Assembly: GCF_016756775.1 (NCBI RefSeq)
Contig: NZ_JAERMU010000003.1
Coordinates: forward strand, 1-64,000
Direction: 5' to 3'
DNA length: 64,000 nt
DNA from: Dryocola clanedunensis subsp. sulfonylureivorans
Lineage (GTDB): Bacteria > Pseudomonadota > Gammaproteobacteria > Enterobacterales > Enterobacteriaceae
A program made the position numbers and the translations under genes. The stretch's first letter is position 1. Every line of letters begins with the position of its first letter. This document shows positions 10,973 to 28,260 of the stretch, piece by piece. The notes beneath the pieces are model-generated. The model searched no databases. It was not told where the DNA came from and saw only the letters and a program-made list of their open reading frames with translations.

Positions 10973-10974
10973 TC

Positions 10975-10996: not shown

Positions 10997-11004
10997 CTAT
11001 CTGG

Positions 11005-11027
11005 AGGCAGCAAAGGCTGCCTTTTTT
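11005..11027 (+). terminator. Second tandem terminator
   Basis: GGCAGC/GCTGCC stem with six T, just upstream of the ribosome site of the next gene; it forms a tandem pair with the terminator at 10975. Confidence 0.7.
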
Positions 11028-11040
11028 GCGGAGAGTAACA

Positions 11041-11732: not shown

Positions 11733-11736
11733 AGCC

Positions 11737-12393: not shown

Positions 12394-12400
12394 GTGAACG

Positions 12401-12961
12401 ATGGCGCAACCACTCAGTCTGGCCGAATACCATGATGCGGTTATCTCATCAGTTAAAGCACATTTACCCTGGGTGCTCTCCGCGGATACATATCCGGAAG
12501 AAAATATTCCGCGATATTCTGGTCTGGTCACGCCGGCGGTCTATTTTACGCTGAACAACTGGAGCAGCCAGGAGGGGAACGAAGGGCAGCTGAATATTGA
12601 ACTGGAGTGTGATTTCTTCGTGGTCGTTGACACCGCCTCAACGCAGAACATCAGCAAACCCGATATTTACCTGCGTGCCGCCGCCGCCGATCTGACGCAG
12701 TGGGTTAATGGCCAGCAGTTCGGACTCACGCAGCTTGAGCCTGCCGTGTTTACGACCTCTGAGAAGGATGATTTCGATCCTCGTATGGATGACTACCTCG
12801 TCTGGCGAGTGAGTTTCACCCAGGCCGCTGCGTTTGGAACCGATCCGTTTGCCACTACGGCAGGGCCATTAAAAGCGGTGTGGCTGGGTGAAGCCCCGGA
12901 TACTGGTCGCAGGCATATTGATGATTACACGCTGATCTATGAGGTGACGCCTGATGAGTGA
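12401..12961 (+). CDS. Tail completion/terminator candidate
   Basis: 186 residues, alpha/beta, no signal peptide. Located between the gpZ-like neck protein and the baseplate spike, the usual slot for a tail terminator or Mu gp37-like protein. I do not recognise a diagnostic motif. The stop overlaps the next gene's start by eight bases, pointing to coupled translation. Confidence 0.55.
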   Translation: MAQPLSLAEYHDAVISSVKAHLPWVLSADTYPEENIPRYSGLVTPAVYFTLNNWSSQEGNEGQLNIELECDFFVVVDTASTQNISKPDIYLRAAAADLTQWVNGQQFGLTQLEPAVFTTSEKDDFDPRMDDYLVWRVSFTQAAAFGTDPFATTAGPLKAVWLGEAPDTGRRHIDDYTLIYEVTPDE

Positions 12962-13571
12962 CGCAGTAGGTGATTTGCAACGAAGGCTGGCGAATCTGGT
13001 CAGGCGGGGAGTTATCCATTCGGTACAGGCGGGAGGAATACCCAAATGTCGGGTTGACCTCGGCGATATCGTTACGGGCTGGTTACCGTTGTGCCAGGGG
13101 TATTCTGGTAAAAACCGCGCCGATTCAAATCCCTTTGCGCCTGGTGATGCGGTCACCGTGCTTTCGGAAGCGGGTGAACTGAATAACGGTCGCGTTTTCC
13201 CCGGCTGGAATACCGGGGCGCTGCCCGTGCCGGAGGGAAGTGAAAGCGAACACGTTACTCGCTACGGCGACGGCACCGAAGTGCGTTATGACCGTGAGGG
13301 GCACAACCTGACCATCAGGCTGGTGGAGGGCGGCACCTACACAATTATCGGTAAAGGTACGCTGGATGGACCCGTGGAAATTACGGACACGCTGACGGTG
13401 CAAGGTATTACGCAGATCAACGCCAACCTTATCGTTAGCGCGAGCATTTCTGCCTCGGGTGAAATTTCAGATGGCAAAGGGAAAATCAGCGCGATACGTA
13501 CCACCTATAACGGTCATAACCACCGGGGCGACAGTGGTGGAAATACACAACAACCCAATCAACAAATGTAA
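12954..13571 (+). CDS. Baseplate assembly protein V (tail spike)
   Basis: 205 residues, the P2 gpV/Mu gp45 type membrane-piercing spike. An N-terminal OB-like domain (residues about 20-95, with GYSGKNRADSNPFAPGD) is followed by beta-helical repeats, and the C-terminal tip carries NGHNHRG, the HxH motif that binds iron in P2 gpV. The Asn/Gln-rich tail precedes a terminator that overlaps the stop codon. Confidence 0.9.
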   Translation: MSDAVGDLQRRLANLVRRGVIHSVQAGGIPKCRVDLGDIVTGWLPLCQGYSGKNRADSNPFAPGDAVTVLSEAGELNNGRVFPGWNTGALPVPEGSESEHVTRYGDGTEVRYDREGHNLTIRLVEGGTYTIIGKGTLDGPVEITDTLTVQGITQINANLIVSASISASGEISDGKGKISAIRTTYNGHNHRGDSGGNTQQPNQQM

Positions 13572-13592
13572 CCTGCTTCGGCAGGTTTTTTT
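13570..13592 (+). terminator. Intrinsic terminator after spike gene
   Basis: AACCTGC TTCG GCAGGTT stem with a UUCG tetraloop and a T run; the stem begins in the stop codon. Confidence 0.88.
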
Positions 13593-13609
13593 ACGCCTGG
13601 AGAATATGA

Positions 13610-15073
13610 ATGGCTGATTTACATGGTGTGGAAACGATAGAGCTGACCTCCGGATCGGTCGCGGTGACCACAATCCAGACCGCAGTGATTGGTCTGGTAG
13701 GCACTGCGCCGGATGCCTCGACAGGGGCCGCGGCATTCGTCACCGTCGGCACGCCGATCCTCGATAATACCCTGACGTTTACGGCAAAGCTGGTGGGGCG
13801 TGCAGGCAACACTCTGCAGGTCGTTGCCGTTGCAGGAGTTCCCGATGAAGAATTGCCGGAAGAGGTTCCAACGTCAGCAGTACAGAACGAACAATTACTG
13901 ACGATCACCCTCGGCTGCGATGAAGCCGGCACGCTCATCGCAACCGCTGATGATGTGGCTGATGCGGTGGGGAGTCTGGCCGGTAGCGCCGTAGTGGTAT
14001 CAGGCGGTGGTGCGGGGCTGGTGGGCCCATTCAATGAAAAACTGAGCAGCGGAGAGGACGAGCCTTTTCCCCTGAATACCCCTGTTGCCGTCGTTGGCAG
14101 CACGCTCTGGTCAAAACTGGGGGCGGCCGGAACGCTTCAACAGGCGCTGGGAGAAATTAATAACCAGAGAAATGCGTTGTCGATTGTTGTGCGCGTGGCA
14201 GAGGAGCAGGATGAAGAAGCCCAGCGCGCAGCGATACTGGCGGGCATCAATGTACTGTCCAGAAGTAAGACGGTAACGACCTATCAGCCACGGATCCTCA
14301 TTGCGACAGGCTTCAGTGAGGATGATGCGGTGGGGAAAGCGCTGGAGACACAGGCCGGGAAATTACGGGCAGTGGCCTATGTGGACTGTGCATCCGGGGC
14401 CACAATGCAGGAAGTGGTGCAACGCCGGCAGATGTACGGCGCCCGGACTGAAATTCTTCGCCCGCGCGTTCAGGTAAGCAACAGTGACGGCCAGATAATC
14501 TACCGTCCCTATTCTGCTGCGGCAGCCGGTCTGCGCGCGCGTATCGATTACGAAAAAGGGTGGTGGTGGAGTAAATCGAACCAGGACATCTACAACATTC
14601 TTGGTGTCGAACAAATCGACGAGTTCATTCTCGGTGATGAAAACTGCGATGCTAACCTTCTGAACATGCAGAACATTTCCACCATTATTCGCCGTTCCGG
14701 TTTTAAGCACTGGGGTAACCGCCTGTGCTCAATCGATCCTCAGTTTCGTTTTGAATCGGTCCGCCGTACCGCCGACGTCATCGAAGACAGCATTCAGGAA
14801 ACCATCCTCGAGTATGTCGACCGTCCTCTCGACCGGACCAACGCCGATGACATTATCAACACCATCAATGCTTACATGCGGCAATTACACGGGCTGGGAG
14901 CTATTTTTGGCGGCAAGGCGTGGCTGGATGAAGAACTTAACACGGCTGAATCTCTGGCATCCGGCGTGCTGTATATCAACTATGACTTCGGTCCTAAATC
15001 ACCGACCGAACGGATCACCCTGCGTGTCCGTGTGAACAATCAGTATGCATTAGAGGAGCTTAACGCAGCATGA
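13610..15073 (+). CDS. Contractile tail sheath protein
   Basis: 487 residues. The N-terminal segment with GVETIELTSGSVAVTTIQTAVIGLVGTAP and the C-terminal part (YVDRPLDRTNADDI, RQLHGLGAIFGGKAWLD, TERITLRVRVNNQYALEEL, each quoted in part) are typical of P2 FI-type sheath proteins, which contract to drive the tube through the envelope. The stop overlaps the tube gene by four bases. Together with the tube gene this shows the phage is a myovirus. Confidence 0.95.
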   Translation: MADLHGVETIELTSGSVAVTTIQTAVIGLVGTAPDASTGAAAFVTVGTPILDNTLTFTAKLVGRAGNTLQVVAVAGVPDEELPEEVPTSAVQNEQLLTITLGCDEAGTLIATADDVADAVGSLAGSAVVVSGGGAGLVGPFNEKLSSGEDEPFPLNTPVAVVGSTLWSKLGAAGTLQQALGEINNQRNALSIVVRVAEEQDEEAQRAAILAGINVLSRSKTVTTYQPRILIATGFSEDDAVGKALETQAGKLRAVAYVDCASGATMQEVVQRRQMYGARTEILRPRVQVSNSDGQIIYRPYSAAAAGLRARIDYEKGWWWSKSNQDIYNILGVEQIDEFILGDENCDANLLNMQNISTIIRRSGFKHWGNRLCSIDPQFRFESVRRTADVIEDSIQETILEYVDRPLDRTNADDIINTINAYMRQLHGLGAIFGGKAWLDEELNTAESLASGVLYINYDFGPKSPTERITLRVRVNNQYALEELNAA

Positions 15074-15576
15074 GTGAGAAAACGAAACTCAGAGTCTGGA
15101 CGTTCTTCCGGAACGGGATCCGTATTCAGGGGGCGCATGAATACACGCCGCCGGTGCTGACCATCACCAAAACCGATTTACGTACCGGCGCGCAGGATGC
15201 GCCAACCCCGGTGGACGATGGCATGGAGGCGCTCACCTGCCAGATCAAGTTCTACGGTATTGATACGGATATGCTGGCGAGCTTTGGCTTTGTCAGCGGA
15301 AACCGGCCACGCTTCACGGCCTACCAGGGATTCACGGGAAACACGACTGAAGCCAGTTCCTCTGAAGAAATTGAGGGCTTTGTTCAGACCGTTACCCCGG
15401 ACGCGCGCGGCAACAGCGCCCTGTCAGAAAATGCCGTTACGGTAGATATTGCGGTGAGCTATTACCGCCAGATGGTTAACGGTCTGGAAACCATTGCTAT
15501 CGATACCGAGCGTTTTTCACGGCGCGTGAACGGCGTCGATGTCCTTTCCGGTCTGGCGGCAAAAGTCCGTCTTTAG
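15070..15576 (+). CDS. Tail tube protein
   Basis: 168 residues, P2 FII-like. Tube subunits stack inside the sheath to form the DNA channel. Features: N-terminal TFFRNGIRIQGAHEYTPPVLT, central DDGMEALTCQIKFYGID and C-terminal YYRQMVNGLETIAIDTE, matching the family pattern. It is translationally coupled to the sheath gene and followed by a terminator. Confidence 0.92.
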   Translation: MSEKTKLRVWTFFRNGIRIQGAHEYTPPVLTITKTDLRTGAQDAPTPVDDGMEALTCQIKFYGIDTDMLASFGFVSGNRPRFTAYQGFTGNTTEASSSEEIEGFVQTVTPDARGNSALSENAVTVDIAVSYYRQMVNGLETIAIDTERFSRRVNGVDVLSGLAAKVRL

Positions 15577-15590
15577 TCCACCTTTGATCC

Positions 15591-15614
15591 AACGGCCTGC
15601 GGGCCGTTTTTTTT
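15591..15614 (+). terminator. Intrinsic terminator after tube gene
   Basis: AACGGCC/GGCCGTT stem with eight T. Confidence 0.88.
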
Positions 15615-15626
15615 ATGGAGATATCT

Positions 15627-15917
15627 ATGAACTTCCCGGCTGAAACCCGAGTCATCAAACTGTACAGCCCCGTTTCGCTTGAGAGCGGAAACCTGCTTGA
15701 ACAGGTCACCATGCGCGAGCCTCTGGTACGCGATCGTATCGTTCATTCAAAAGATCGCGGTAATGAAGAAGAGAAGGAAGCGCGCATGATTGCTTTGCTC
15801 TGCAACCTGTCCGAACAGGAGATCTGGCTCCTGACGGCGGCAGACTATGCGCAGCTCACGGACGCCTTTAACGTTTTTATGTTACCGCCAGAGAAACGAC
15901 CGAAGACGACCTCCTGA
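15627..15917 (+). CDS. Tail assembly chaperone (P2 gpE-like)
   Basis: 96 residues, acidic/helical, between tube and tape measure, where tail assembly chaperones lie. The start is ATG 15627 with TGGAG six bases upstream; that site overlaps an in-frame ATG at 15615, which is therefore less likely. In related phages this frame also gives a longer protein by -1 slippage; here the -1 frame is open from 15872 to 16051 and its distal part is listed separately. Confidence 0.82.
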   Translation: MNFPAETRVIKLYSPVSLESGNLLEQVTMREPLVRDRIVHSKDRGNEEEKEARMIALLCNLSEQEIWLLTAADYAQLTDAFNVFMLPPEKRPKTTS

Positions 15918-15922
15918 GAGCG

Positions 15923-16054
15923 ATGAGACTGCTCGGCCGGCGGGTACATTTCTCGATGGCTGATTATCTGGCTATGCCGCTGAATTCCTTTATTTCTTTA
16001 ATCAATCAGGAAAGGGAGGACGCCGAACGTGGGCGCAACAAGTCAAAACCTTAA
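15923..16054 (+). CDS. Distal part of tail chaperone, -1 frame (E'-like)
   Basis: A 43-codon frame, -1 relative to the chaperone, open from 15872 through the chaperone stop to TAA 16052. Product MRLLGRRVHFSMADYLAMP and onward, ending EREDAERGRNKSKP. Its order and frame match the E+E' frameshift products of P2-like phages, which coat the tape measure. No canonical X XXY YYZ heptamer is seen; the nearest slippery candidate is TTT ATG near 15876. Independent start at ATG 15923 is the alternative. Confidence 0.6.
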   Translation: MRLLGRRVHFSMADYLAMPLNSFISLINQEREDAERGRNKSKP

Positions 16055-17726
16055 AGCCACGATCACTTTTGCGGGTGGGGTGGACAGCTCATGGAAACGT
16101 TCTACCCGGGATGTAGAGAAGGGCCTCAAGGATGTTGATAAAGAGTCTCAGAAGCTTATCCGCGACCAGGCAAAGCTGGCGGCGGAAATCAAAAAGACCA
16201 AAATTGCCGGAAACAGCGTTAAGGATCTGAGCCGACAGTACAGTGAGGTTACCCGGGAAATCCAGCGAACCGAGAAGGAGCAAAAGCGTCTTAACGGGCA
16301 GCTTTCCAAAGCCCGTAAACTCGAATCCTTCAAAGGCATGGGGAAAGGATTATTCCGGCGCGCAGGCGGTTTTGCCAGCGGGATGGCGGGTATGGTTGCG
16401 CCCGGTCTTGCCATTGGCGGTGGTGGGGTGGTTGCTTCCGCGCTGGGCACGCTGATCATGCCGGCGGCCCGGAATGCAGAAACCGCTGAGAAAGCCGGGA
16501 TAGCCAAAAGCTACGGCGTGGATGTGCCGACATTCAATAACTGGGACTCGCTGGCGAAACAGTTTGGTATCAGTGGTGAGAATGTTGGCGATCTGTTTGA
16601 AGAGTATCTTCACAAATCTGGCGAGTATAAGCAGACGGGCAAGCAGGGAGCGCTCGAGGATGCGTTCGATACGCTTGGGTTTAAAGCCGGTGATATGGCT
16701 GGCCTCAGCGATGTGGCCCAGTTTGAAAAAATCGTTGAACGTGCGCTCAGCCTGAAAGACCAGTCGAAAGCCTCCTTCGCCCTCGATTCACTCTTTGGTG
16801 GCGAGGCCAGTAAGTTTCTGGTGCTCATCAGGCAGTCTGGCAAAAGCTATAAAGACCTGATTGACGAACAGCAGCGCTACAACCTGGTGACCAAAGAAGG
16901 TGCCGACGGCGCGATTGCCGGTAATCAGGCCGTACGAAACCTGCAGACCGTTTTCTCATCGGCGATTGCAGAAATATCCGGCCAGCTGGGTAACGAGCTG
17001 GCACCGGATATTCGCAGCCTGACAGACTCTCTGGCCGAGTGGTTTAAAGGCGGTGGCATTAAGCGGATCACGGGATTTCTTAAAAATGACCTTTATCCTG
17101 GTGTGCTGACCTTCGGCAACGGTGTTGTGTATGTCGGTCGCATCATTTATGCCCTTGCAAAAAAACTCTCCTGGCTTCTGCCTGATGACAGAAACGATCG
17201 CAAAGATGTTCTGAAATCGCTGGCAATGACCGGATCAACTGATATAGCCAGGCAGACCGCGAAACGTAATGGCCAGGAAGAGTGGTTTGATAAGCAGCTT
17301 CAGGACAATCCCGATCTTGTCACCAACGTTAAGAAGTCGTACACCGAAACCCGCGGTTACTTCACGGACGACAACGATAAATTCAATCAGACGCTCGATA
17401 ACATTCTGGGGCCGGAGACTAAAACAGATCTGATGTCATTTGATGACGCGCTGAAAGGGAATCAACAGAGTAGCCCGGGTGATAGCGCCGGTACGGATGA
17501 AAAATCGGGGGACTGGAAGAAATACACTCAGGATCCGGCAAACTTCACCAGCGCTGCTGACGCCCGCCAGCTTACCGATAATCGCAAATTTGATTATCAC
17601 TTCGAAATTAACGGCGCGCCAGGCCAGGATGCCTCTGCCATCGGTGACACAATTTCAGGTATCACTAAAACCAACCCTGCTTTCACAGGCGACAGCAGCA
17701 TGTACGACCTCTGGAGTGACCAATGA
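16029..17726 (+). CDS. Tail tape measure protein
   Basis: 565 residues. It sets tail length and is ejected with the DNA. A coiled-coil N-terminus (about 20-105, rich in KLAAEIKKTK and EIQRTEKEQKRLNGQ types) is followed by a Gly/Ala-rich hydrophobic segment (about 110-150), then a helical body. The start is GTG 16029, nine bases after GGGAGG, overlapping the end of the -1 chaperone frame by 26 bases. It is shorter than P2 gpT (about 815), so a shorter tail is expected. Confidence 0.92.
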   Translation: MGATSQNLKATITFAGGVDSSWKRSTRDVEKGLKDVDKESQKLIRDQAKLAAEIKKTKIAGNSVKDLSRQYSEVTREIQRTEKEQKRLNGQLSKARKLESFKGMGKGLFRRAGGFASGMAGMVAPGLAIGGGGVVASALGTLIMPAARNAETAEKAGIAKSYGVDVPTFNNWDSLAKQFGISGENVGDLFEEYLHKSGEYKQTGKQGALEDAFDTLGFKAGDMAGLSDVAQFEKIVERALSLKDQSKASFALDSLFGGEASKFLVLIRQSGKSYKDLIDEQQRYNLVTKEGADGAIAGNQAVRNLQTVFSSAIAEISGQLGNELAPDIRSLTDSLAEWFKGGGIKRITGFLKNDLYPGVLTFGNGVVYVGRIIYALAKKLSWLLPDDRNDRKDVLKSLAMTGSTDIARQTAKRNGQEEWFDKQLQDNPDLVTNVKKSYTETRGYFTDDNDKFNQTLDNILGPETKTDLMSFDDALKGNQQSSPGDSAGTDEKSGDWKKYTQDPANFTSAADARQLTDNRKFDYHFEINGAPGQDASAIGDTISGITKTNPAFTGDSSMYDLWSDQ

Positions 17727-18193
17727 GTGAAATTATTCCGCTGTTTGAGTCCGCAGGTCAGACCGAGCTTAGCACCGCGCGAGGGGGGCAGGCAGCAAGG
17801 GTGATGCTTATGCTGGGCGATTTTGCATTCTCAGTCGATACCACGGCATACCAGCAGCTTACCCGGGAGGCCGCCTGGCGATGGAGTGAACAGGAACGGA
17901 TCGGCAAACAGGATTTGCTGCAGTACACCGGAAAAACAGCCAGAACGGTACGCCTGGAAGGCGAAGCACATGCTTTTTTTCGTAAAGGGGTCGATGCAGT
18001 CAACGACCTGTTTGATCTGGGCGAAAAAGCAAAACCGCAGCAGCTGGTCAGTGGTGCCGGTGACGTGCTGGGCTGGTGGGTGATGGTAGACTTTTCTGAT
18101 GCGACCAGCCGCTTTCTTCCCGGCGGTGGCCAGCGTAATAAAAACTGGACGATGACACTCAAATTCTATGCCGACGATCTATCAAACCCGTGA
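17723..18193 (+). CDS. Tail protein U (P2 gpU-like)
   Basis: 156 residues with family-typical MLMLGDFAFSVDTTAYQQL near residue 28, WRWSEQERIG, and FYADDL near the end. gpU is an essential P2 tail completion protein that binds at the tail end. Coupled by a four-base overlap to the tape measure gene, and overlapping gene X by 26 bases. Confidence 0.92.
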   Translation: MSEIIPLFESAGQTELSTARGGQAARVMLMLGDFAFSVDTTAYQQLTREAAWRWSEQERIGKQDLLQYTGKTARTVRLEGEAHAFFRKGVDAVNDLFDLGEKAKPQQLVSGAGDVLGWWVMVDFSDATSRFLPGGGQRNKNWTMTLKFYADDLSNP

Positions 18194-18383
18194 CGGCGAT
18201 GTGCTTGACGCAATAGTCGCCGAACATTACGGCACCGCTGGCGCATCTGCCATGGTGTCTCAGGTGCTGGAGGCAAATCAGGGATTATCTGAGAAGGGCG
18301 ATATTTACCCCGCCAGACTGTTGATAACCCTCCCAGATTTACCGCCAGTAAAAGAAGAATCACCTTTCCAGCTCTGGGATTAA
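18168..18383 (+). CDS. Tail protein X (LysM-like)
   Basis: 71 residues, a small LysM-fold protein: TRDGDVLDAIVAEHYG then VLEANQGLSEKGDIYPARLLITLPD. P2 gpX is an essential minor tail protein near the baseplate hub. It overlaps U and is followed after one base by D, the canonical U-X-D order. Confidence 0.93.
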   Translation: MPTIYQTRDGDVLDAIVAEHYGTAGASAMVSQVLEANQGLSEKGDIYPARLLITLPDLPPVKEESPFQLWD

Positions 18384-18384
18384 T

Positions 18385-19506
18385 ATGACCGACAACACCT
18401 CTGCGCTGGAATATTCTCCCGATTTCAGCGTGATTGCCGAAGGGAAAGATATTACCCGTGCGCTGCAGCAAAGCCTGACTGAGCTGACCCTCACCGATAA
18501 CGGTGGCGCAACAGCCAAATCTGATGAGCTGAAAATAACCCTTTTGTCCGAAACACTGAAGCTGCCTTCAAAGGGGGCACGCCTGCGGCTTGCTCTTGGG
18601 TTCAATGGTCAGCTGGTGGACAAAGGCTGGTTTGTGGTGTGCAGCGTCTCGAGCAGCGGGCCACCCCGGAAAATTGACATCTATGCGACCGCGGCACCCA
18701 TGAATGCAGAGAAGCAACAGGGGGATGTTCTGGCGCATAAAAATCGCAGCTGGGATGGTGTCACCCTGGGTGAGATTGTGAAAACGGTCGCCACCGACAA
18801 CGGGTTGCTTCCCCGAGTTGCGGCATCACTGATGGATATTCAGATACCGCATCTGGATCAGGTTGCTGAATCTGATGCGAATCTGATGACGCGGCTGGCG
18901 CATACCTACAGTGCCGTCAGTAAACCAGCCGGTGGATACTGGCTCTTTCTGGAACAGGGCGCTGCAGTTAACGCCAGCGGCAAATCTGCGGCAACGATAA
19001 CCATCACGCCCGAAGAGCTTTCAACCTGGTCATACAGCGAAGGAAGCCGGGGGAACTCGACCGGAAAAACCACGGCCGGCAGTAAAAAGAACAGCGGCAA
19101 GATCGGCGTTAATTACTATAACGAGCAGGACGGCAGGACGAATGTCAGTACCGTTGAGCATGATGGTCCGACGATGCTGATGCCCTGGACGCAGCCGGGG
19201 AAAGCGCAGGCTGACCATCATGCGCAGTCCAGGAAAACCCAGGCGAACCGGAATGAACGTAAAATGACGATAGCCGGCCCCTGCCGCCCGAAGCATGTTC
19301 CGCTGACCGCGGAATGCCAGGTGAAAACTTCCGGGTTTGGGGAGAGGGAAGACGGGCAGTGGCTGACAGAGTCGCTCGTTTATACCCTGGGGCCGTCAGG
19401 ATTCAGCTTTACCTGGAATCTTGTCGTTAACATCAAAGCGAAACAGGCTAAATCAAAGTCCCAAAAATCAGGTTCTGATAAGACCGGCCCGAATTACTAC
19501 GGCTGA
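18385..19506 (+). CDS. Tail protein D / baseplate hub (phage late control D family)
   Basis: 373 residues. This family forms the baseplate hub that holds the spike and resembles T4 gp27. Features include YSPDFSVIAEGKDIT near residue 10, RNRSWDGVTLGEIVKTVA-like text near 115 and a Lys/Ser-rich C-terminus (KSKSQKSGSDKTGPNYYG in part). Despite the family name it is structural. Confidence 0.92.
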   Translation: MTDNTSALEYSPDFSVIAEGKDITRALQQSLTELTLTDNGGATAKSDELKITLLSETLKLPSKGARLRLALGFNGQLVDKGWFVVCSVSSSGPPRKIDIYATAAPMNAEKQQGDVLAHKNRSWDGVTLGEIVKTVATDNGLLPRVAASLMDIQIPHLDQVAESDANLMTRLAHTYSAVSKPAGGYWLFLEQGAAVNASGKSAATITITPEELSTWSYSEGSRGNSTGKTTAGSKKNSGKIGVNYYNEQDGRTNVSTVEHDGPTMLMPWTQPGKAQADHHAQSRKTQANRNERKMTIAGPCRPKHVPLTAECQVKTSGFGEREDGQWLTESLVYTLGPSGFSFTWNLVVNIKAKQAKSKSQKSGSDKTGPNYYG

Positions 19507-19526
19507 TCCCTACCGCAGGAAATCAC

Positions 19527-19877
19527 ATGAATGGTGTCAATCGCCAGACGGGCAAACGCCTGTCGGGTTCGGCGCATCTGCGCCAGTCCGTTATCGATAT
19601 TCTTACAACCCCGAAAGGGAGCCGGCTACTTGTGCGTGATTACGGGAGCGATATTCCCGATCTTGTGGACAACCCGCAGGACGATCTGACCCGGCTTCGG
19701 ATCATCGCGGCAACAGCGTCGGCCCTGGCCGTCTGGGAGCCGCGGATAAAGCTTAGTCGCGTTATCGTGGCGTTTAATAACGACGGCAGCTGTGCCGTCA
19801 CGATAGAAGGCATCAACACGGAAACGGGCGATCCCGTTAACATTGAGGATATCCCCGCCTATGGCAAGCAGCTATGA
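19527..19877 (+). CDS. Baseplate protein W (gp25-like)
   Basis: 116 residues with the family signature region LVRDYGSDIPDLVDNP near residue 38 and LAVWEPRI near 72. gp25/W proteins form the inner baseplate wedge and carry lysozyme-like folds without lytic function. Its stop overlaps the start of J by 17 bases. Confidence 0.93.
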   Translation: MNGVNRQTGKRLSGSAHLRQSVIDILTTPKGSRLLVRDYGSDIPDLVDNPQDDLTRLRIIAATASALAVWEPRIKLSRVIVAFNNDGSCAVTIEGINTETGDPVNIEDIPAYGKQL

Positions 19878-20781
19878 CGTCATAAACCTTTCCGATCTGG
19901 CCGTGCCGGACGCGATTATCGTTCCGGATGCCGATGATATTTTCTCTGCGTGGCTCGCCAGACTGCGCGAACTGGATGCTGAATTTGATGCGCTGGTGGA
20001 GTCTGACCCCACGTATAAGCAGGGTGAAGTCAGCGCCTATCAGCTGACGCTGGCATTTCAGCGCGTCAACGATGCGGTACGGGCGGTCTTCCTTGCCAGC
20101 GCAGCGGGTGCTGATTTGGATCAGCTTGGTGCAAATTTTAATGTGCAGCGGCAGCTAATTATCCCGGCCGATCCCGATGCTGTTCCCCCGGTTGAGGTGG
20201 TTTATGAGGACGATGATGCATTTCGCGAGCGTATTCAGCTGTCCTGGGCGCAGCTCAACACGGCCGGCGCCCGAAATGCGTATCGCTATTACGCCAAATC
20301 CGCTGACGTCGATATTCTTGATGCCGATGCCTATGGGCCTGAAACACATAATCGCCCCGGGGAAGTTGATGTTTACATCCTCTCACGAACCGGCGACGGC
20401 ACGGCCAGCGCTGAGCTGGTCGCGACTGTTGATTCCACGCTAAATGCAGACGAGGTCCGACCGTTAACCGATTATGTCAGCACGCAAAGCGCAACCATCC
20501 AGAATTATTCCATCGAAGCGCAGCTCGATATCCCGGACGGGCCAGATGCACAAACTGTGCTTGAGAATGCGATCGACGCCGTGACCAGCTATACCCGGCT
20601 CTCCCACCGGATAAATACCCTCGTTCCTGTCTCCGCCGTCTATGCTGCCCTTCAGCAGCCCGGAGTTTCCCGTGTCAGGTTAACCAGCCCAAAGGCTGAT
20701 ATTGAAGCCGCCGCGGGCCAGGCACCCTGGTGCGGCTCAATAAATGTTATCCGTACACCGGAGGTAAGCCGTGGGAAATAA
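19861..20781 (+). CDS. Baseplate wedge protein J
   Basis: 306 residues, P2 gpJ/Mu gp47 family, the wedge subunit linking W to the fibre network. Typical stretches: AAGADLDQLGANFNVQR near residue 85, FRERIQLSWAQLNTAGARNAYRYYAKS near 120 (in pieces). The start at ATG 19861 has TGAGGA upstream; the frame is open to 19843. The stop overlaps gene I by 11 bases. Confidence 0.93.
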   Translation: MASSYDVINLSDLAVPDAIIVPDADDIFSAWLARLRELDAEFDALVESDPTYKQGEVSAYQLTLAFQRVNDAVRAVFLASAAGADLDQLGANFNVQRQLIIPADPDAVPPVEVVYEDDDAFRERIQLSWAQLNTAGARNAYRYYAKSADVDILDADAYGPETHNRPGEVDVYILSRTGDGTASAELVATVDSTLNADEVRPLTDYVSTQSATIQNYSIEAQLDIPDGPDAQTVLENAIDAVTSYTRLSHRINTLVPVSAVYAALQQPGVSRVRLTSPKADIEAAAGQAPWCGSINVIRTPEVSRGK

Positions 20782-21325
20782 TTTCAAATCGTTATTGCCC
20801 CCTTCTTCGGTTGCGGCTGAGCGGGCGCAGGAGCAGGCAACAACCGAGCCTGTCAAAGCGCTGAATACCGGCATGGTGCGGTGGGTAAAAAATCCCGATC
20901 TCTGTCCGGCTGAGCTATTGCCATGGCTTGCATGGGAATTCGCCGTTGATTTCTGGGACGGCAGCTGGTCAGAGGAACAAAAGCGCCAGGTCATCAAGGA
21001 TGCAGCCTATGTTCATCAGCACCGTGGGACCGCCGGCGCCGTCAGGCGGGCGCTCGGCTCTGTAAGCCTGCCCACGACGGTAATTGAATGGTGGGAAGAC
21101 GCTCCCAGAAAAGACCCCTACACGTTTCGTATCGAGGTCTACAGCCAGCAGGCCATCGACGCCGGGCTGTATGACATGATCCGACGTCAGGTTGAGAAAG
21201 CGAAAAACCTGCGTAGCCAGTTGAGCACGATCGATGTCATTGCCGACTTAGGTGGGGAAGGGGCTTATTACACGGGTGGGGCGACTACCGTCTATATCAG
21301 CATGATCATTGAGCCAGGAGAATAA
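20771..21325 (+). CDS. Tail protein I (P2 gpI-like)
   Basis: 184 residues. It connects baseplate and fibre. Family-typical text: PAELLPWLAWEFAVDFWDGSW near residue 40 (in part), HQHRGTAGAVRRAL and VIEWWEDAPRKDPYTF. GTG start at 20771, overlapping J. The fibre gene begins two bases after the stop. Confidence 0.93.
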   Translation: MGNNFKSLLPPSSVAAERAQEQATTEPVKALNTGMVRWVKNPDLCPAELLPWLAWEFAVDFWDGSWSEEQKRQVIKDAAYVHQHRGTAGAVRRALGSVSLPTTVIEWWEDAPRKDPYTFRIEVYSQQAIDAGLYDMIRRQVEKAKNLRSQLSTIDVIADLGGEGAYYTGGATTVYISMIIEPGE

Positions 21326-21327
21326 TA

Positions 21328-21654
21328 ATGGCTGATAAGTACTACAGTATTCTTACCAATAGGGGAAAGGATTTAGAGGCGCAATCCAGCGCAACGGGTG
21401 AGCCGGTTATTCTGAAAAGCTTCGTTGTCGGCGATGGGAATGGCCAGGCCGTTACGCCAGACCCGGCAAAAACAGCGCTGGTTCACGAAGTATATCGAAG
21501 CGACATTTCATCGCTTGATGTATCCACTGAGCAGAGCAACCAGTGGATCGCCCATCTTGTTTTACCAGCTGACGTTGGAGGCTTTACCGTACGTGAGATG
21601 GGCCTGTTGACGGATGCGGGCGAGCTTTACGCCGTTTGTAACTGTGCTGCGTAA
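21328..21654 (+). CDS. Tail fibre, N-terminal attachment domain only (truncated)
   Basis: 108 residues corresponding to the conserved N-terminus of P2 gpH-like fibres (DUF3751): YYSILTNRGKDLEAQ, FVVGDGNGQ, VGGFTVREMGLLTDAGELYAVCN. Complete fibres have several hundred more residues after this; here the frame stops at TAA right after CNCAA. This domain anchors the fibre to the baseplate, while the receptor-binding part lies out of frame downstream. A large internal deletion is the simplest explanation. Confidence 0.85.
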   Translation: MADKYYSILTNRGKDLEAQSSATGEPVILKSFVVGDGNGQAVTPDPAKTALVHEVYRSDISSLDVSTEQSNQWIAHLVLPADVGGFTVREMGLLTDAGELYAVCNCAA

Positions 21655-22177
21655 GAACGCAGGCGTGACGCAGGTTTATTACGTTTACAACAGCTCCCGC
21701 GTCTGGTCACGCAGTCAGTACAGCACAGGGGCATGGACACCGTGGGCGCGTGAGTACAACACACAGAATAAACCTTCCGCAAGTGATGTCTATGCGATAG
21801 CCCAGGACAGTTGCGAGGTTGCTGGATTCGCAAATAATAATGCAGCTAATCCATATATGCGCCACAAATCCAGTAATGCAGTTGTTACATTAGCGCCTCA
21901 AAGCTGGGTGTGGGCTACTTTTCAACCTAAAGGCAGCTATACCCCAGCAGGGCAGGCCTACACCAAAGCAGAAAGTGAAGCCCGTTATGTTCGAAATATG
22001 CAGCGTGGGGCGGCAACATCACCAGCAAAAACAAGTCAGTATGGCGCCAATGAGGCTCCTACAGGGTGTGTATTAACTCGCGCGTGGGGCGATCCTTCTG
22101 ATGATTATGGCGTTTTGATGACATATCGCCCACTACAAATTTATCTTAATGGCGCATGGCGAACAATTACAGGCTAA
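21655..22177 (+). pseudogene. Tail fibre C-terminal remnant, out of frame
   Basis: The frame is shifted +1 relative to the N-terminal piece and encodes about 170 residues resembling fibre tips: WSRSQYSTGAWTPWAREYNT, then NKPSASDVYA and repeats ending GAWRTITG. An internal ATG at 21614 lies inside the N-terminal domain in the wrong frame, so independent translation is doubtful. Followed directly by the fibre assembly gene, as normal. Together with the preceding entry it is a broken fibre gene, unless programmed frameshifting joins them. Confidence 0.7.
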
Positions 22178-22182
22178 ATAAT

Positions 22183-22710
22183 ATGGAACTGAAAAACGTA
22201 TCACGCTATTACCCTGACAATATGGAGTATGGCGACGGCATCCAGTATTTTAAAAGTGAAGATGGTCAGGATTTTTACGACTCTATAGAACTATTTACCG
22301 AGAAATATAAACTGTGTATCGAACCCGATACTAAAATAGTTCGCTCAATCGCAGAGGATGTTTCAACGCTTTATCCTGTCGGGTTTGATGTTGTTGAAAC
22401 TGATGCTTTGCCCGAAGGCGTTAACATTTACGGTGATTATCAGTTTAATAGTGGGAAGGTTATCGAAAGAAGCCAAAGCCATGCAGAGCTAGTTTCAGAA
22501 GCCGAGACGGAAAAATCGCAACGTCTGGATGAAGCTGCAACCGCAATCGCACCGCTTCAGGATGCAGTTGACCTGGGCATTGCCACCGATGAAGAAGCTG
22601 AACTGCTTCTGGACTGGAAGAGATATCGGGTTGAAGTAAACCGGATCGATACAAATCTTGCCCCTGACATTACATGGCCAGTGCCGCCGGTGAGTAAAGT
22701 GAGATTCTAA
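22183..22710 (+). CDS. Tail fibre assembly protein (Tfa family)
   Basis: 175 residues. Tfa proteins are chaperones for folding or attaching the C-terminal tip of tail fibres. The C-terminal half has the family layout: [49 protein letters not shown] and TWPVPP. The start at ATG 22183 fits, six bases after the fibre stop; an in-frame ATG at 22156 lies inside the fibre remnant. Intact although its client fibre is broken. Confidence 0.92.
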
Positions 22711-23309
22711 TTGCAATGTCATTTGGTTTGGCATGCATCACAAATGTCAATACTCATGAAGCAGTAAGTTGAGCGTTTGATCATTTTTAATTTCTTAATA
22801 AAATCAATCGGTTGAAATTTATAGTGGTGAATTCTAGTTTGTTAAAAAATCAAGGTGGAACAAGTGAAATTAACATAAAAAAACGTTATTTTTCATGAAT
22901 GAATGCATGTGATATTAACAACAAGTTAAAATGTCACACACTACGTTAATGTTTGTTTATTTTTAAATTTGCGGGATTTAATCCTGCTATATTGTTCTTT
23001 TTTTCTTTTGCAGATGTGTGTTGTGATGTTTTGAAGTGGAAAATTCTTTCACCTATGCTTTTAATCAGAGTTTTTAGTTTGTCTTTCATTGTTGCATATT
23101 AAATGCATGTTTAAATATAATACTCTACATTGAATGGCGTAAATATATACCACTGTATGTTTTTATTATGTTGATTGGTTATTGTTACCAAGGGTTTACA
23201 TCTCTATTCAATAATGGTTTTTGGATTTTCACTTTAAATGATGGAATGTTCCTTATGTAACATTGACAAGATGTTGCAAAGGATGATGAATTAAGGGAGT
23301 TCTATTGAA
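22711..23309. other. AT-rich intergenic stretch
   Basis: About 600 bases, very AT-rich, without a convincing gene or terminator. A TTGACA occurs at 23263 but without a usable -10 at 17 bases, and it would leave almost no leader. An imperfect inverted repeat TGTAACA...TGTTGCA spans about 23256-23279. The promoter of the autotransporter gene presumably lies here. Confidence 0.5.
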
Positions 23310-25559
23310 ATGCAAAAAAAACTAATATTTAAATCGATTTATTTGGCACTTTTCGCTGGACTATCAACAACGCAGGCAATAGCAGATACCTTCGATATCA
23401 ATGATGGAACTCAAAGCGAGATAACCATACCCAACGGGAATAATGTTATCAACATCCAGGATGGCTCAGTGCTTGATGTATTATATACAGGCAATGGTGA
23501 TAACTTAATTAATGTTACAGGTGGCCAGATTACCGGAGCTATTGATAGTAGTTTCCAGACTGAAGGTGGTAATTATATCCAGTTATCAGGTGGTACCGTT
23601 AATTTTGTTAATGGTTCGGAAGCTAATGATACGATCATCCTTGACGGCAGTAGCATGCCCGGGGAGGGGGGATTGTACGGATCTGGGGCGATATATGGTA
23701 ATGCTGGCGACAATAACATTATTATTAAATCTGGAGATGTTGTCGATGTAGTCGGTGGAAGTGGTAATGACAAAGTCGATATCTGGGGTGGAGCTATATC
23801 AGGAGCCGTTTTCGGTGGTCAGGGTAATGATATTATTGCAATACATGGTGACAATGCCGTGATAAATAGCCTTGACGGCGATTTTATGGACGATCCTGGA
23901 GGGGCGATTGATGATGATAAAATTTCGTATCGCGACACGCTTATTTTATCCGGTGTCACCGATGCGATCTCTTTAAATCCGTTGCTATTAAAAGGCGAGT
24001 CCTTTGAAAATATTACGCTGAATGACGCAACCAACATTACGCTATCTAACGACCTGTGGACTGGGAAGGAGTTTACTACTTCAGCGCTATTCGTAGATTC
24101 GACGAGCACTCTGAATATCGTAGGTTCTCAAACCGTTTACGGAAATGTTACGAACACAGGTGTAATGAGCTTAAATAACGGTGTGCCAGGTAATTCTCTG
24201 CATATTACTGGTAATTACGCTGGTAATGATGGAACTTTACAGCTGGCGACTAAACTCGGTGGCGATGATTCAGCAACGGACAAAGTAACTATCGATGGTG
24301 ATACCAGTGGTAAAACATTTGTAGCTGTCACTAATGCTGGCGGCAGCGGTGCTCAAACCCTAAACGGCATTGAGTTAATTTCTGTTGGTGGGGTGTCAGA
24401 TGGTGAATTTAAGCAAAAAGGGCGTATTGTAGCCGGCGCATATGACTATACCCTGGTACGTGGTACAGAAAACTTTAAAAACTGGTATCTGACGAGTACC
24501 GATACAACCCCTCCGATCATTGACCCTGTTGACCCTGTTGACCCTGTTGACCCTGTTAATCCTGTTAATCCTGTTAATCCTGTTAATAATGTTCGTCCAG
24601 AAGCTGCTGCGTATGCTGTAAACAGTGCTGCCTCCAATACGTTGTTTACTACATCACTGCATGACCGCCTGGGTGAAACGAATTATGTGGATGCATTAAC
24701 CGGGGAGCGGCTTGTAACAAGCCTCTGGATGAGGAATGAGGGGGGGCATAATCGTTCTACTGATTCTAGTGGTCAGAACAATACACATGCCAACCGCTAT
24801 GTGCTGCAACTTGGTGGCGACGTAGCCCAGTGGTCAACTGACGGCACAAATCGCTACCACATCGGTATGATGGGCGGTTATGCGAATCAGAAAGCCAAAA
24901 CCAGTAATAACCGTACCGGTTACCATGCTGACAGCAGCATCGACGGCTACAGCGCAGGGCTTTATGGTTCGTGGTTCCAGGACAACGAAACCAGGAGTGG
25001 CGCATATTTAGATTCGTGGATGCTCTATAACTGGTTTGATAACAATATCAGCGGACAGGACAATCCTACTGAGTCATACAAATCGAAAGGAATTACAGCC
25101 TCGGTCGAAGCAGGCTATGCCTGGAAACTCACAGACATGAGTCAACGTAATGCATGGTTTGTACAGCCACAGGCACAAATTACATATATGGGAGTTAAAT
25201 CTGACGATCATCAGGAAGCTAACGGTACATATGTTAAATCAGAAGGTGATGGCAACATTCAATCCCGCCTTGGTGTTCGTACGTATCTGAAAGGTCACAG
25301 TAAAATCGATGACAATAAGAATCGCACTTTCGAGCCATTTGTAGAAGCTAACTGGATTCATAACACGAAATCATTCGGGGCAAGTCTGGATGGTGTGCGT
25401 ATTGATCAGGCTGGGGCACGTAATATTGGGGAACTGAAAACCGGTGTAGAAGCTAAGCTGAGTAAAAACGTTAATTTCTGGGGCAGCGTTGCCCAGCAAA
25501 TAGGTGATAAAGGCTATAGTGATACAGAAGGTGTCGTTGGCGTGAAGGTAAGTTTTTAA
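23310..25559 (+). CDS. Autotransporter adhesin (type V secretion)
   Basis: 749 residues. A signal peptide (about 1-25, ending QAIA) is followed by a Gly/Asn-rich passenger with repeated GNDxI/GGxGND turns (about 30-200), fitting a parallel beta-helix. A pertactin-like autochaperone region (about 295-385) and a Pro-Val linker of nine-base repeats (about 404-425) precede a 12-strand type beta-barrel ending in Phe (VKVSF). AAGGGAG precedes the ATG. The passenger is short, about 400 residues. It lies past the fibre genes of the prophage, so it may be lysogenic-conversion cargo; a role in adhesion or aggregation is family-based. Confidence 0.9.
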   Translation: MQKKLIFKSIYLALFAGLSTTQAIADTFDINDGTQSEITIPNGNNVINIQDGSVLDVLYTGNGDNLINVTGGQITGAIDSSFQTEGGNYIQLSGGTVNFVNGSEANDTIILDGSSMPGEGGLYGSGAIYGNAGDNNIIIKSGDVVDVVGGSGNDKVDIWGGAISGAVFGGQGNDIIAIHGDNAVINSLDGDFMDDPGGAIDDDKISYRDTLILSGVTDAISLNPLLLKGESFENITLNDATNITLSNDLWTGKEFTTSALFVDSTSTLNIVGSQTVYGNVTNTGVMSLNNGVPGNSLHITGNYAGNDGTLQLATKLGGDDSATDKVTIDGDTSGKTFVAVTNAGGSGAQTLNGIELISVGGVSDGEFKQKGRIVAGAYDYTLVRGTENFKNWYLTSTDTTPPIIDPVDPVDPVDPVNPVNPVNPVNNVRPEAAAYAVNSAASNTLFTTSLHDRLGETNYVDALTGERLVTSLWMRNEGGHNRSTDSSGQNNTHANRYVLQLGGDVAQWSTDGTNRYHIGMMGGYANQKAKTSNNRTGYHADSSIDGYSAGLYGSWFQDNETRSGAYLDSWMLYNWFDNNISGQDNPTESYKSKGITASVEAGYAWKLTDMSQRNAWFVQPQAQITYMGVKSDDHQEANGTYVKSEGDGNIQSRLGVRTYLKGHSKIDDNKNRTFEPFVEANWIHNTKSFGASLDGVRIDQAGARNIGELKTGVEAKLSKNVNFWGSVAQQIGDKGYSDTEGVVGVKVSF
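24522..24584 (+). repeat. Nine-base tandem repeat in autotransporter linker
   Basis: Four copies of GACCCTGTT followed by three of AATCCTGTT, encoding (DPV)4(NPV)3. Unit length is a multiple of three, so slippage would change linker length without breaking the frame. Confidence 0.95.
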
Positions 25560-25590
25560 TCCAACATAAATCCTAATGGTTTTTTTCCTA

Positions 25591-25623
25591 TATCAAATGG
25601 CGCCTTAAAGGTGTCATTTGATA
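25591..25623 (+). terminator. Strong hairpin after autotransporter gene
   Basis: TATCAAATG (25591-25599) pairs with CATTTGATA (25615-25623), with further inner pairing. No clear T run follows, so it may stabilise the mRNA end rather than terminate. Confidence 0.4.
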
Positions 25624-25821
25624 CTTATTAGTTGTAACACTAATAATTAGTTAGATTATGACATTAAATGGTTAAAGACTTCGAGTAATAAATAAACTTG
25701 ATCGTATCCTCCAGAGTAACTATATCTTGTCTAAAATCCACTTGTCAGCTCTAAGTGAAATGAAACTGGATGGGAATGTTATTATAGGTGAGAAGCTGCA
25801 TTATGGCTAAAGGAGAAAAGG

Positions 25822-26433
25822 ATGTCATTGTGTCTGTTAAGCGATAATAAATATTTGTGTGTGGGTGTTGCATCTAGTGTTGATAAGGTTATTTGTGTTT
25901 CCTCTGATGCATTGATAAACAATAAGGAGTTGTTTTATGATATGTTAGAAGAAAGTAAGGTTCGCATAGTATTAATAAGTATATCTAATGATGCATTGTT
26001 AATGAAGGCTATTGAATTGACATGTAAGCAAAAAAATATACTGGTGTTCGTTGAGTGTCCGTCTTGTGTTCATATACCAGAGGTGAATGTTTGTGGTGTT
26101 ATTATGCTGCATCGGACATTAACATTTTCAAAACTATATGAAATAGCCCTTGCTAAAGATTTAAAGAGATATTGCTTTCCAATGATCGGTTTTTCAAAAA
26201 AACAAGAAGTGATCTGTTTGACTTTATTGTCAATATTGCAATGTGGGACAGGGTCGGGTGGGCTTATTCCTAATGTGCATATATCCGCAAAAAAAATTAG
26301 CAGGCAAAAAATGAAATTATCCAGAGATATGTATATCAATGGTGTTAATTTTATTTTGCTTTTAAAGTTACTGAAGTTGTTCTATGGGATATTTAAAATA
26401 AAATGTAATGTCAAAACACCCGTGTCGCAATAA
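25822..26433 (+). CDS. LuxR-type HTH regulator, degenerate
   Basis: 203 residues. The N-terminal part (about 1-135) is alpha/beta without clear receiver residues. The C-terminal part (about 142-195), with FSKKQEVICLTLLS, then ISAKKISRQKMKLSRDM and FILLLKLLKLF, follows the four-helix LuxR/GerE pattern, with KKISRQKMKL in the place of the recognition helix; the region between is atypical. A strong AAAGGAG site precedes ATG 25822. Very AT-rich and adjacent to the autotransporter gene, which it may regulate. DNA binding is inferred from pattern only. Confidence 0.6.
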   Translation: MSLCLLSDNKYLCVGVASSVDKVICVSSDALINNKELFYDMLEESKVRIVLISISNDALLMKAIELTCKQKNILVFVECPSCVHIPEVNVCGVIMLHRTLTFSKLYEIALAKDLKRYCFPMIGFSKKQEVICLTLLSILQCGTGSGGLIPNVHISAKKISRQKMKLSRDMYINGVNFILLLKLLKLFYGIFKIKCNVKTPVSQ

Positions 26434-26718
26434 AGATACAGTATAGATGACGAGTGTGTTTCAGAATCGATTCGATAAAACTCCTGCAGCTTGGTATTGA
26501 ATAATAAAAAAATAAAGTACGCTAAGTCATCAAGGAGTCTTATTTACTACTTGCTATCTACAGGAAGCCAGAATCGACGAAATCCGGTTTGAATATGCAA
26601 GCAGGTATCAGCGCACATAGTCACCCCTTTACTAGCGTGCGTTTTTATTTCTTTCAATATAGTTGTTAACTATTAAATAGCGTATTTACACCCCCTATGA
26701 TCATGTTGTCCATAAGCG

Positions 26719-26889
26719 CTACTCGCTAACGAGCCAGAATTCGGCCTCTTCAAACATATCTTCAACCAGGCGGTTAAGCTTTTCCTTCTCCGTTTTAGTG
26801 CAGTCGCTGTTCACCGCATTGGCCTGCATTGGCTTAACGCGCACATCAGCGGTCGGGAATACAGTATACACCCGCTTTGCTTGGGGCGC
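26719..26889 (-). pseudogene. DinI-like protein remnant, N-terminus lost
   Basis: On the minus strand an open frame from after TAA (26892-26890) to TAG (26721-26719) reads VYTVFPTADVRVKPMQAN, then KEKLNRLVEDMFEEAEFWLVSE in pieces. The C-terminal pattern (E..F..AE.WLVSE) is that of DinI-family phage proteins, SOS-induced modulators of RecA. About 25 N-terminal residues and a start codon are missing; only an internal GTG at 26871 is available. DinI-like genes often mark the right end of lambdoid prophages. Confidence 0.65.
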
Positions 26890-28260
26890 TTATTGACCTA
26901 CGAAACTTTCGTGGGTGACTGCCCCGATAATTTCGGGATTGTCTTGTGAGTAACTTTTGGTTACCTGCAAATTCTGAGGCCATAATGACCCGCGCAAAAA
27001 TAGAATAGCCTTTAAAGGAGCTGTTCACCCGATTCGTTCAGCGGTCGTTTCGTAACCTCGTGACTAATAGTCACACGGCTACCGCAGCTCTCGGCGTAAA
27101 GCGTTGGAACCTCTAAACCACGTTTAACGTTGTTTTGCATTAAGCAATAATACCAACACCTACCGATTCCGCTGGAACGACGGAGTTAGACCAAATCAGC
27201 CAGTAATGCAATTCTAACGAATTGTTATAATTAAGCCTGTTCAAGGAGTCAGGCAATTCTCGCGATTAGCTATAATTACATGGATTCAATGGGTTGCGAT
27301 GTCCGTACGTTAAACGTTCGGAGCTGTTTAAACTAGACACATCACCGAGTTTGATTTGTGTGCGCGATTTCCAATTGACCACAATTCAACCATCCCTCTC
27401 CCTCCTCAAATCCCACTATTCAGCCTCATACCCGACTTTAAAGCCCCAGAAACCGACCCTTAATCCGACTAAGGTCGGGTACGGTTTTTGGCATAACCAA
27501 CTGATTAGTAGTGAAATATCTCTCCATACCCGACTTACCCGACCAAACCGACCATGTTTTGCTTATATATAGAGATTTTTTGAATCTTGATTTAAACCTC
27601 AGAACTTCTCGTATAGATCACCGTCTGCAACAATGGCAGAAAATTAAATGGGGGTATCATTGGGGGTTCTTTGTTTTTTAAATTAAAATAAATAATGTTA
27701 AATCAATGCATTATATGTCATGTATTGCTCCCGCTGACCGCTCCAGCCTTCCCCTCATCGCCTTGCGCAATATTGCCGCTGGTGGCCCCTCGTATACAGA
27801 ATCGCAAAGCGAGACACCCTGACCTGCGAATACATGCTCCCAGAAATCTGAACTACAAACCTGTCTGCAATACCCAGGAAGCGCTTCTGTCGGAGATGGC
27901 TAAAGCGCAGGGCGCTTTACTGAAGCCAGATCATTAAGCCACAATGAATTCGTGTTTAATTCATGCTGTAATTTGATGATTTGGATTAAGTTACTTATAA
28001 ATCAATAATAATATATCCGTGCAAACCACTGTGCAGGTCGTTATACATAGTAAACCTGTCAGGGAAAAGACAGGAAGACTTCTGGTACTGCTGTGTATTT
28101 ACGGGGCCTGATCGATGTCGACAGGCTCCCGGATTTTTCTCTCCACATCCACATCCACCTCCACCTCCCTCTTCCATAATGTGACTACCAATATGAACGC
28201 AATGGCGTCTCTGCCAGGTTGTGCTAATTTTTTTATGGGTAATCATATGAGAACAAGGTA
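26890..28260. other. Gene-poor stretch, prophage-chromosome junction
   Basis: No protein gene I would defend. It holds a near-palindrome GTGACTAATAGTCAC (27060-27074), a repeat cluster (27427-27556), two close G-runs, GGGGGTAT and GGGGGTT, near 27650-27672, and a hairpin (28054-28073). A frame ending at 27937 has a protein-like C-terminus (QEALLSEMAKAQG) but no good start and may be decayed. The junction between prophage and chromosome is probably within this stretch. Confidence 0.5.
27427..27556. repeat. Repeat cluster, possible attachment-site arms
   Basis: CATACCCGACTT occurs at 27427 and again at 27526, each followed by AACCGACC or AAACCGACCA. An inverted counterpart, AAGGTCGGGTACGG, lies between them, with CCGACCCTTA opposite it. 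Clustered direct and inverted repeats at a prophage end resemble integrase arm sites. The integrase is not in view, so this is inference. Confidence 0.4.

Follow-up and report, generated by a model that had tools for sequence, protein, structure and literature searches.

A candidate prophage-borne adhesin unit in Dryocola clanedunensis: an autotransporter gene followed by a strongly diverged LuxR-type regulator

We examined a stretch of 64,000 nucleotides from Dryocola clanedunensis subsp. sulfonylureivorans (assembly GCF_016756775.1, contig NZ_JAERMU010000003.1, positions 1 to 64,000; hereafter the window), and in particular two neighbouring genes in a putative prophage: one for a type Va autotransporter and one for a short LuxR/GerE-type regulator (Table 1). 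The window begins at the start of the contig, here called C3, and its first 22.7 kb carry lysis, terminase, portal, tail-sheath, tail and fibre genes. Behind these stand the two open reading frames (ORFs), on the same strand and both intact in the ORF listing, with the regulator starting 262 bp downstream of the autotransporter. An earlier note, made from the same DNA letters, gave exact coordinates for the pair and described the autotransporter as complete and followed by a small, degenerate LuxR-type regulator, with which our domain and profile evidence agrees. The pair is also placed as that note had it, between fibre genes and a DinI remnant, the left neighbours being fibre and fibre-assembly genes. 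Its statement that both genes are very AT-rich is true of the regulator (32.2% GC) and of the intergenic DNA upstream of the pair (28.7%), whereas the autotransporter is only moderately so (44.4%); the phage late genes have 55.4% GC. The AT-rich leader (22711-23309) is the presumed promoter region of the autotransporter; promoter-like sites across 22600-27000 number 14, no excess over shuffles (mean 14.8).

The regulator is invisible to the profile libraries. It matched no Pfam family at E<=1, no fitting PHROG family and no fitting NCBIfam model (the sole match, at E 0.033, was meaningless), and a PDB sequence search with it gave no match. Neither Pfam nor NCBIfam found an autoinducer-binding or receiver domain in it. 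The GerE family (PF00196) has 22 matches over the cut-off in the organism's own genome, and the regulator is not one of them; it is absent even from the 32 own-genome matches at E<=10. Pairwise alignment to the own-genome GerE proteins and weaker matches nevertheless singled out two proteins, L064 (z 5.2) and L061 (z 4.4). A profile of four short own-genome proteins (L064, L061, L058 and L054) gave the regulator 28.3 bits, against 12.4 for the best of 2000 shuffles. Because L064 and L061 had been chosen for their best alignment to the regulator, a leave-out test was made. Searched against 295 genomes of the family, the four-sequence alignment had matches in 199, many in the helix-turn-helix (HTH) part only, and the regulator was not among the matches listed for its own genome, where 11 of the 32 candidates scored. 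From the family-genome loci we took 26 full-length members and added the 4 originals; this 30-row profile (29 distinct rows, one being a duplicate) gave the regulator 47.7 bits over residues 1-188, the best of 2000 shuffles reaching 9.4. After removal of L064, L061 and all sequences at least 35% identical to either, the 22 remaining rows, which had nonetheless been retrieved via the alignment holding L064 and L061, still gave 40.6 bits (best of 2000 shuffles, 9.0).

Since the full-length scores lie far above those of the shuffles, the regulator belongs to this short LuxR-type family, of which the own genome has at least 5 chromosomal members. With the two larger profiles, the N-terminal half alone scores 38.2 and 30.8 bits, and the C-terminal half alone (amino acids [aa] 119-203) 9.8 and 9.0 bits, level with the best shuffles. 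The regulator is thus a family member with a recognisable N-terminal half and a degenerate DNA-binding half; the earlier note had taken the sensing half to be the unclear one, and the profiles turn this around. The N-terminal half may adopt a diverged receiver-like fold, although structure models of the regulator are of low confidence (mean pLDDT 37.9 from the single sequence and 42.0 from a 3-row alignment). As the libraries used recognise neither an autoinducer- nor a phosphate-receiving domain in that half, the regulator more likely takes its input from its own level or from a partner protein. In this way, a strongly diverged protein that the libraries do not see can be tied to a regulator family.

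The autotransporter consists, in order, of a signal-peptide-like start (about aa 1-26), a passenger (about 27-210), an autochaperone, a proline-rich linker, a beta-barrel and a C-terminal phenylalanine, the first and last of these being judged by inspection. The general barrel model TIGR01414 matches at 405 bits (cut-off 16). The C-terminal 479 residues find matches in 183 of 392 family genomes, and the protein as a whole in 22 of 60 related genomes, its own counted. Many of the alignments to relatives start at aa 244-290; some HMMER alignments start earlier, for example at aa 24 (an own-genome paralogue) and aa 57 (one protein of genome G022). By BLAST, similarity starts at aa 209 for the paralogue, with 59% identity from there on; for two autotransporters of G022 it starts at aa 211 and 226. 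Because similarity to relatives begins at about aa 209-226, the exporter part appears to be standard and the displayed part its own. Among 2465 ORFs from 84 autotransporter loci, phmmer matched aa 27-240 only to itself; the best BLAST match of this segment (E 1.2e-5) is a weak, repetitive similarity to part of a repetitive passenger. The first 270 residues had a single weak match in the genome_contigs collection (a Rhizobium bin, 36% over part) and none in a plasmid search. The first ~210 residues of the passenger, with two GGxGND motifs at aa 149 and 169, are therefore without a clear close relative in the material searched. PHROG names the protein "tail fiber protein proximal subunit"; the match covers only the C-terminal 480 residues, and this family name was set aside as misleading. 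Also unused as evidence of phage carriage were 8 matching records of a phage collection, which include bacterial contigs and unannotated short contigs. The paralogue lies elsewhere on contig C3 (locus L025, 6147-8987, plus strand), beside another autotransporter with a PF03797 domain on the opposite strand (L025, 9705-12641).

Table 1. Features of the pair and of its surroundings in the window
Feature	Coordinates	Strand	Evidence
Type Va autotransporter, 749 aa	23310..25559	+	PF03797, PF18883, TIGR01414
Autochaperone domain, aa 295-382	24192..24455	+	PF18883 (AC_1) E 5.4e-27, 94.5 bits, cut-off 27.1
Beta-barrel domain core, aa 472-727	24723..25490	+	PF03797 E 1.1e-44, 153.6 bits, cut-off 26
Short LuxR/GerE-type regulator, 203 aa, strongly diverged	25822..26433	+	family profiles
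N-terminal half of regulator, aa 1-118; SDNxYxxxG start common to family members; presumed receiver-like fold	25822..26175	+	
Degenerate helix-turn-helix half of regulator, aa 119-190	26176..26391	+	no PF00196 match
AT-rich leader, presumed autotransporter promoter region	22711..23309	+	28.7% GC
Terminator-like hairpin 3' of autotransporter, 15 pairs, loop 3	25591..25623	+	
Putative prophage late arm, from the contig start as far as attR: lysis, terminase and head genes, contractile tail, fibre, cargo	1..27745	+	
Tail-fibre N-terminal collar piece	21328..21654	+	PF12571, positions 1-107 of 150
Tail-fibre C-terminal piece	21614..22177	+	PHROG tail fibre
Tail fibre assembly protein (lambda gpK/Tfa type)	22156..22710	+	PF02413 E 1.3e-32; phrog_136 E 1.7e-58
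DinI remnant, 50 aa, N-terminus gone	26719..26871	-	PF06183 E 1.1e-11, profile positions 18-63 of 63
Putative attR, 17-bp copy of tRNA-Gly(TCC) 3' end	27729..27745	+	exact match to L094 10649-10665, same orientation

The position of the pair inside a prophage follows from what stands at its two ends. The late arm is recognised by family matches to a terminase, a portal, a tail sheath, a tail protein, a holin and an endolysin. On a second contig, C34, the order beyond ttcA is tRNA-Gly(TCC), integrase, primase and, near the contig end, a Q-like antiterminator; dbpA, the gene on the other side of the interval, lies inside the window. The tRNA gene (locus L094 on C34, 10591-10665) holds the putative attL, the end of which is 165 bp before the integrase ORF, and a copy of its 3' end stands beyond the pair as the putative attR. 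This 17-bp match is weak taken alone (E 0.034), and it gains weight from its place at a tRNA end before an integrase. The attachment core of the E. coli Rac prophage was also tried as attR and gave no match. Homology to congeners resumes just past attR, at 27933 for G004, 27930 for G005 and 28219 for G001, and the site in G004 has merely a degenerate remnant of the tRNA end. The integrase-primase-Q order on C34 and the lysis-head-tail-fibre order on C3 fit one prophage spread over two contigs; we infer that the two parts join, which would give a size of about 12.9 + 27.7 kb plus the gap between the contigs. Since the att repeats flank them, the autotransporter, the regulator and the DinI remnant would all lie inside this prophage. 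The tail fibre consists of two overlapping ORFs in different frames and is short overall; such a split, short gene means that the phage may be fibre-defective, unless an assembly error is responsible.

Comparison with relatives is consistent with this placement. In the ttcA-dbpA interval of three congeners (G004, G005 and G001), DNA comparison found no match to 23310-26433; the comparison covers congeners only, with no same-species strain and with G002 and G003 left out. The pair at the same chromosomal place without the prophage, which the earlier note had named as the finding that would speak against its proposal, thus did not occur in the three congeners examined. A 175-aa ORF in the G005 interval was considered as a related regulator and rejected, as its alignment was not above shuffles. 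At E<=0.001, the regulator has no relative in 59 other related genomes, 5 of them congeners, and none in 391 other genomes of the family, where two partial matches reach E 0.005 and 0.009. It was not found by tblastn in phages or plasmids, nor by six-peptide scans of genome_contigs and IMG/VR. Scans of this kind, also used for the passenger in genome_contigs and for the IMG/VR autotransporters below, are seeded with short exact peptides and overlook distant relatives. A megablast of 22711-26720 gave no match in E. coli genomes. The exact pair was found nowhere else in the genomes, phages and plasmids searched. Searching the open-access literature, with few subscription journals covered, we found no publication on this pair. 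The earlier proposal of a transferable unit moved by phage therefore stands in part: the pair lies inside the prophage and the arrangement of an autotransporter with a LuxR-type gene is recurrent, but with no second pair and no close relative of the regulator or of the first ~210 passenger residues in the material searched, and with a short fibre gene split over two frames, movement between hosts is not supported.

That recurrence was measured on 84 loci with related autotransporters: 37 viral, 17 long chromosomal and 30 short chromosomal, with the window's own (L147) among the short ones. One locus, L159, repeats L096, and 29 other short loci are nearly without an upstream flank. The viral loci come from a scan of IMG/VR and fall into 29 clusters at 95% C-terminal identity. 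Tail or tail-fibre genes lie within about 1.6 kb of the autotransporter in at least 9 of these clusters; in ten clusters one flanking protein each, chosen by eye for its likeness to a tail protein, was compared with the families, and 9 of the 10 matched. These counts suggest that related autotransporters are a recurrent tail-proximal cargo of prophages. By profile search, 12 of the 83 other loci have a LuxR-type gene no more than 1.5 kb from the autotransporter (L101, L102 with two genes, L121, L125, L130, L131, L135, L136, L153, L164, L172 and L175), and L106 and L108 have one at 2.8-4.0 kb. A Pfam check of eight of them supports GerE in L102 (the downstream gene), L121, L131, L164, L175 and L172, the last a GerE-EAL protein; L125 (63 aa) falls just under the GerE cut-off, and Pfam matches nothing in L135 (62 aa) at E<=0.001. 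L101 and L102 are apparently one locus in two congeners. The density of such genes in the own genome predicts about 0.40 for the chromosomal flanks, and 6 loci were seen (5 with the two congeners counted once, P 6e-5); for the viral clusters, 0.37 was expected and 5 were seen (3 without two short ORFs, P 0.007). The counts therefore suggest that autotransporters stand near LuxR-type genes more often than gene density predicts. The varying position, orientation and regulator type point to an association rather than to one cassette, and adhesin islands that are rich in regulators generally could be an alternative source of it. At the congener locus L102 (1252-5521), LuxR-type genes stand on both sides of the autotransporter, one ending 26 bp upstream of it and the other starting 7 bp downstream, and the three genes share a strand.

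Based on these findings, we think it somewhat probable that the prophage carries an adhesin unit for lysogenic conversion, in which the autotransporter is a cargo that alters the surface of the lysogen and the regulator tunes it. The autotransporter would be exported, its autochaperone and barrel displaying an AIDA-I/MisL-like passenger on the lysogen surface, and the displayed passenger could alter aggregation, biofilm or attachment. The regulator would modulate autotransporter transcription and perhaps that of host fimbriae too. In favour of this, 2 of the 4 own-genome family members examined stand beside fimbrial genes, L058 near genes for a PapD-type chaperone and DUF1120 proteins, and L061 near an usher and a fimbrial subunit. 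With putative att sites on both sides, this is a bounded case in which a prophage may bring an adhesin together with its own controller. The kind of arrangement is already known and this pair is a new example of it, of which no second copy was found.

Close precedents have been described. Eaa of atypical enteropathogenic E. coli is a prophage-borne adhesin of the AIDA-I type that confers autoaggregation, biofilm formation and matrix binding (PMC12399667). Its gene, like ours, lies in a chromosomal prophage region beside a tRNA gene; it differs in that the tRNA is tRNA-Thr, the region is 17 kb and no LuxR-type gene is mentioned in the portion of that report used here, the comparison being by description and not by sequence (PMC12399667). 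In the UpaB cluster, the LuxR-type regulators AutA and AutR co-regulate the autotransporter UpaB (PMC4844996). That cluster resembles the present locus in its low GC, its autotransporter adhesin, its LuxR/GerE-like regulators, a putative phage integrase gene and, as far as it is described, the lack of a sensor kinase; it has two regulators, is a chromosomal island and had its regulation tested, again as compared by description and not by sequence (PMC4844996). In the ipuR-upaE operon, a predicted LuxR-type regulator, IpuR, likewise adjoins an autotransporter, UpaE, the two sharing one operon there, with an invertible promoter ahead of it and recombinase genes alongside (PMC6083910). None of the ORFs listed beside the present pair is recombinase-like by eye, and no search for invertible elements was made. 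Since an autotransporter with a LuxR-type neighbour recurs, with printed precedents (PMC4844996, PMC6083910), the interpretation in the earlier note is supported to that extent.

Several observations weigh against the regulator controlling the autotransporter as part of such a unit. A terminator-like hairpin stands between the two genes, so that the regulator is probably transcribed separately or by read-through; 5 terminator-like sites were found in the region against 2.8 expected from shuffles, and the hairpin is weak evidence alone. The HTH half of the regulator is degenerate. The other 2 of the 4 own-genome members examined, L054 and L064, have no recognised fimbrial neighbour; L064 has LysR-type regulators next to it. 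The regulator goes unrecognised by a two-sequence profile of L058 and L054 (10.3 bits; two shuffles score higher and a third equally) and by a profile of six regulators adjacent to autotransporters (9.1 bits, exceeded by two of 2000 shuffles); from the latter, pairs of autotransporter and regulator are not one conserved cassette. No LuxR-type gene was found within 1.5 kb in 71 of the 83 loci, whose flanks are often short, and the UpaE report observed no dependency of its phenotypes on ipuR (PMC6083910). Control of the autotransporter by the regulator is a presumed part of the scheme.

The same degenerate HTH half would also fit a pair that is passive cargo, with an autotransporter that is or was functional and a decaying regulator that has lost its DNA binding and any control of other genes. 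We regard this as possible, though doubtful. That half scores about as high as the best shuffles, and the regulator has no PF00196 match; also in favour are a small insertion ahead of the HTH core, noticed by eye when the alignments were inspected, and decaying neighbours such as the DinI remnant and the short, split fibre gene. A decaying gene would, however, be expected to acquire stops or frameshifts, and this ORF has remained uninterrupted for 203 codons despite a GC content of 32%, with the purine-rich, ribosome-binding-site-like AAAGGAGAAAAGG immediately 5' of its ATG; the family match, moreover, spans residues 1-188. If the regulator acts without binding DNA, it might instead pair with or titrate host LuxR-type fimbrial regulators, bringing fimbriae down while the autotransporter is displayed. 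A kept N-terminal half with an eroded HTH half would suit such a role, and so would a host with at least five chromosomal family members, two of them beside fimbrial genes; the low confidence of both structure models counts against it, and we consider it unlikely. The more specific version, in which the regulator kept a partner-binding half, lost the DNA-binding half and became an antagonist that swaps host fimbriae for the prophage autotransporter, seems slightly less likely still; if true, it would amount to a phage-driven exchange of the cell surface.

It is very improbable that the pair is chromosomal or belongs to an older island beside which the prophage merely integrated. The GC of the pair does differ from that of the phage late genes, the G004 interval also contains an integrase-like fragment and unrelated genes (by eye), the att repeat is just 17 bp long, and the assembly leaves the two contigs unjoined. 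On the other hand, the putative attR lies beyond the pair and matches an attL at the tRNA-Gly gene with an integrase adjacent, a DinI remnant, typical of prophage ends, also lies beyond the pair, and the interval of G004, G005 and G001 has no match to it. Overall, a prophage-borne adhesin cargo with a diverged controller is our preferred reading.

The profile of MisL from Salmonella (PRK15313, NF011841) matches the autotransporter best over aa 427-749, with 532.3 bits, far under the equivalog cut-off of 1297; the AIDA-I model NF033176 gives 315.7 bits of the 1200 required. MisL and CigR are both encoded in Salmonella pathogenicity island 3 (SPI-3), and a CigR-family gene occurs in the same prophage as the autotransporter here; MarT, the regulator adjoining MisL, is of another type. 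The CigR-family gene (3480-4019, plus strand; NF040487, 202 bits, cut-off 78) stands between the lysis genes and the terminase. The phage collection includes a Salmonella contig with matches to both the autotransporter and the CigR protein, about 3 kb from each other.

A few further features were seen around the prophage. The DNA of the DinI remnant (26688-26879) recurs at 91% identity in the own-genome contig C9 (30879-31070); a tRNA-Arg and a phage tail gene of the GPD type lie close to that copy, which is probably the end of another prophage. A tRNA-Ile (GAT) gene at the contig start (472-551, plus strand), just before the lysis genes, may be phage-borne or may be the cause of the assembly break. 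Outside the prophage, between ttcA and tRNA-Gly, L094 5554-8631 encodes a 1025-aa protein with Ca2+-stabilised immunoglobulin-like adhesin repeats. At the other end, an OmpC-type porin gene (28511-29695, minus strand; 556 bits) lies between a small conserved ORF and dbpA; its DNA is unmatched at the same place in G005 and G001, and 41 bases of it match in G004.

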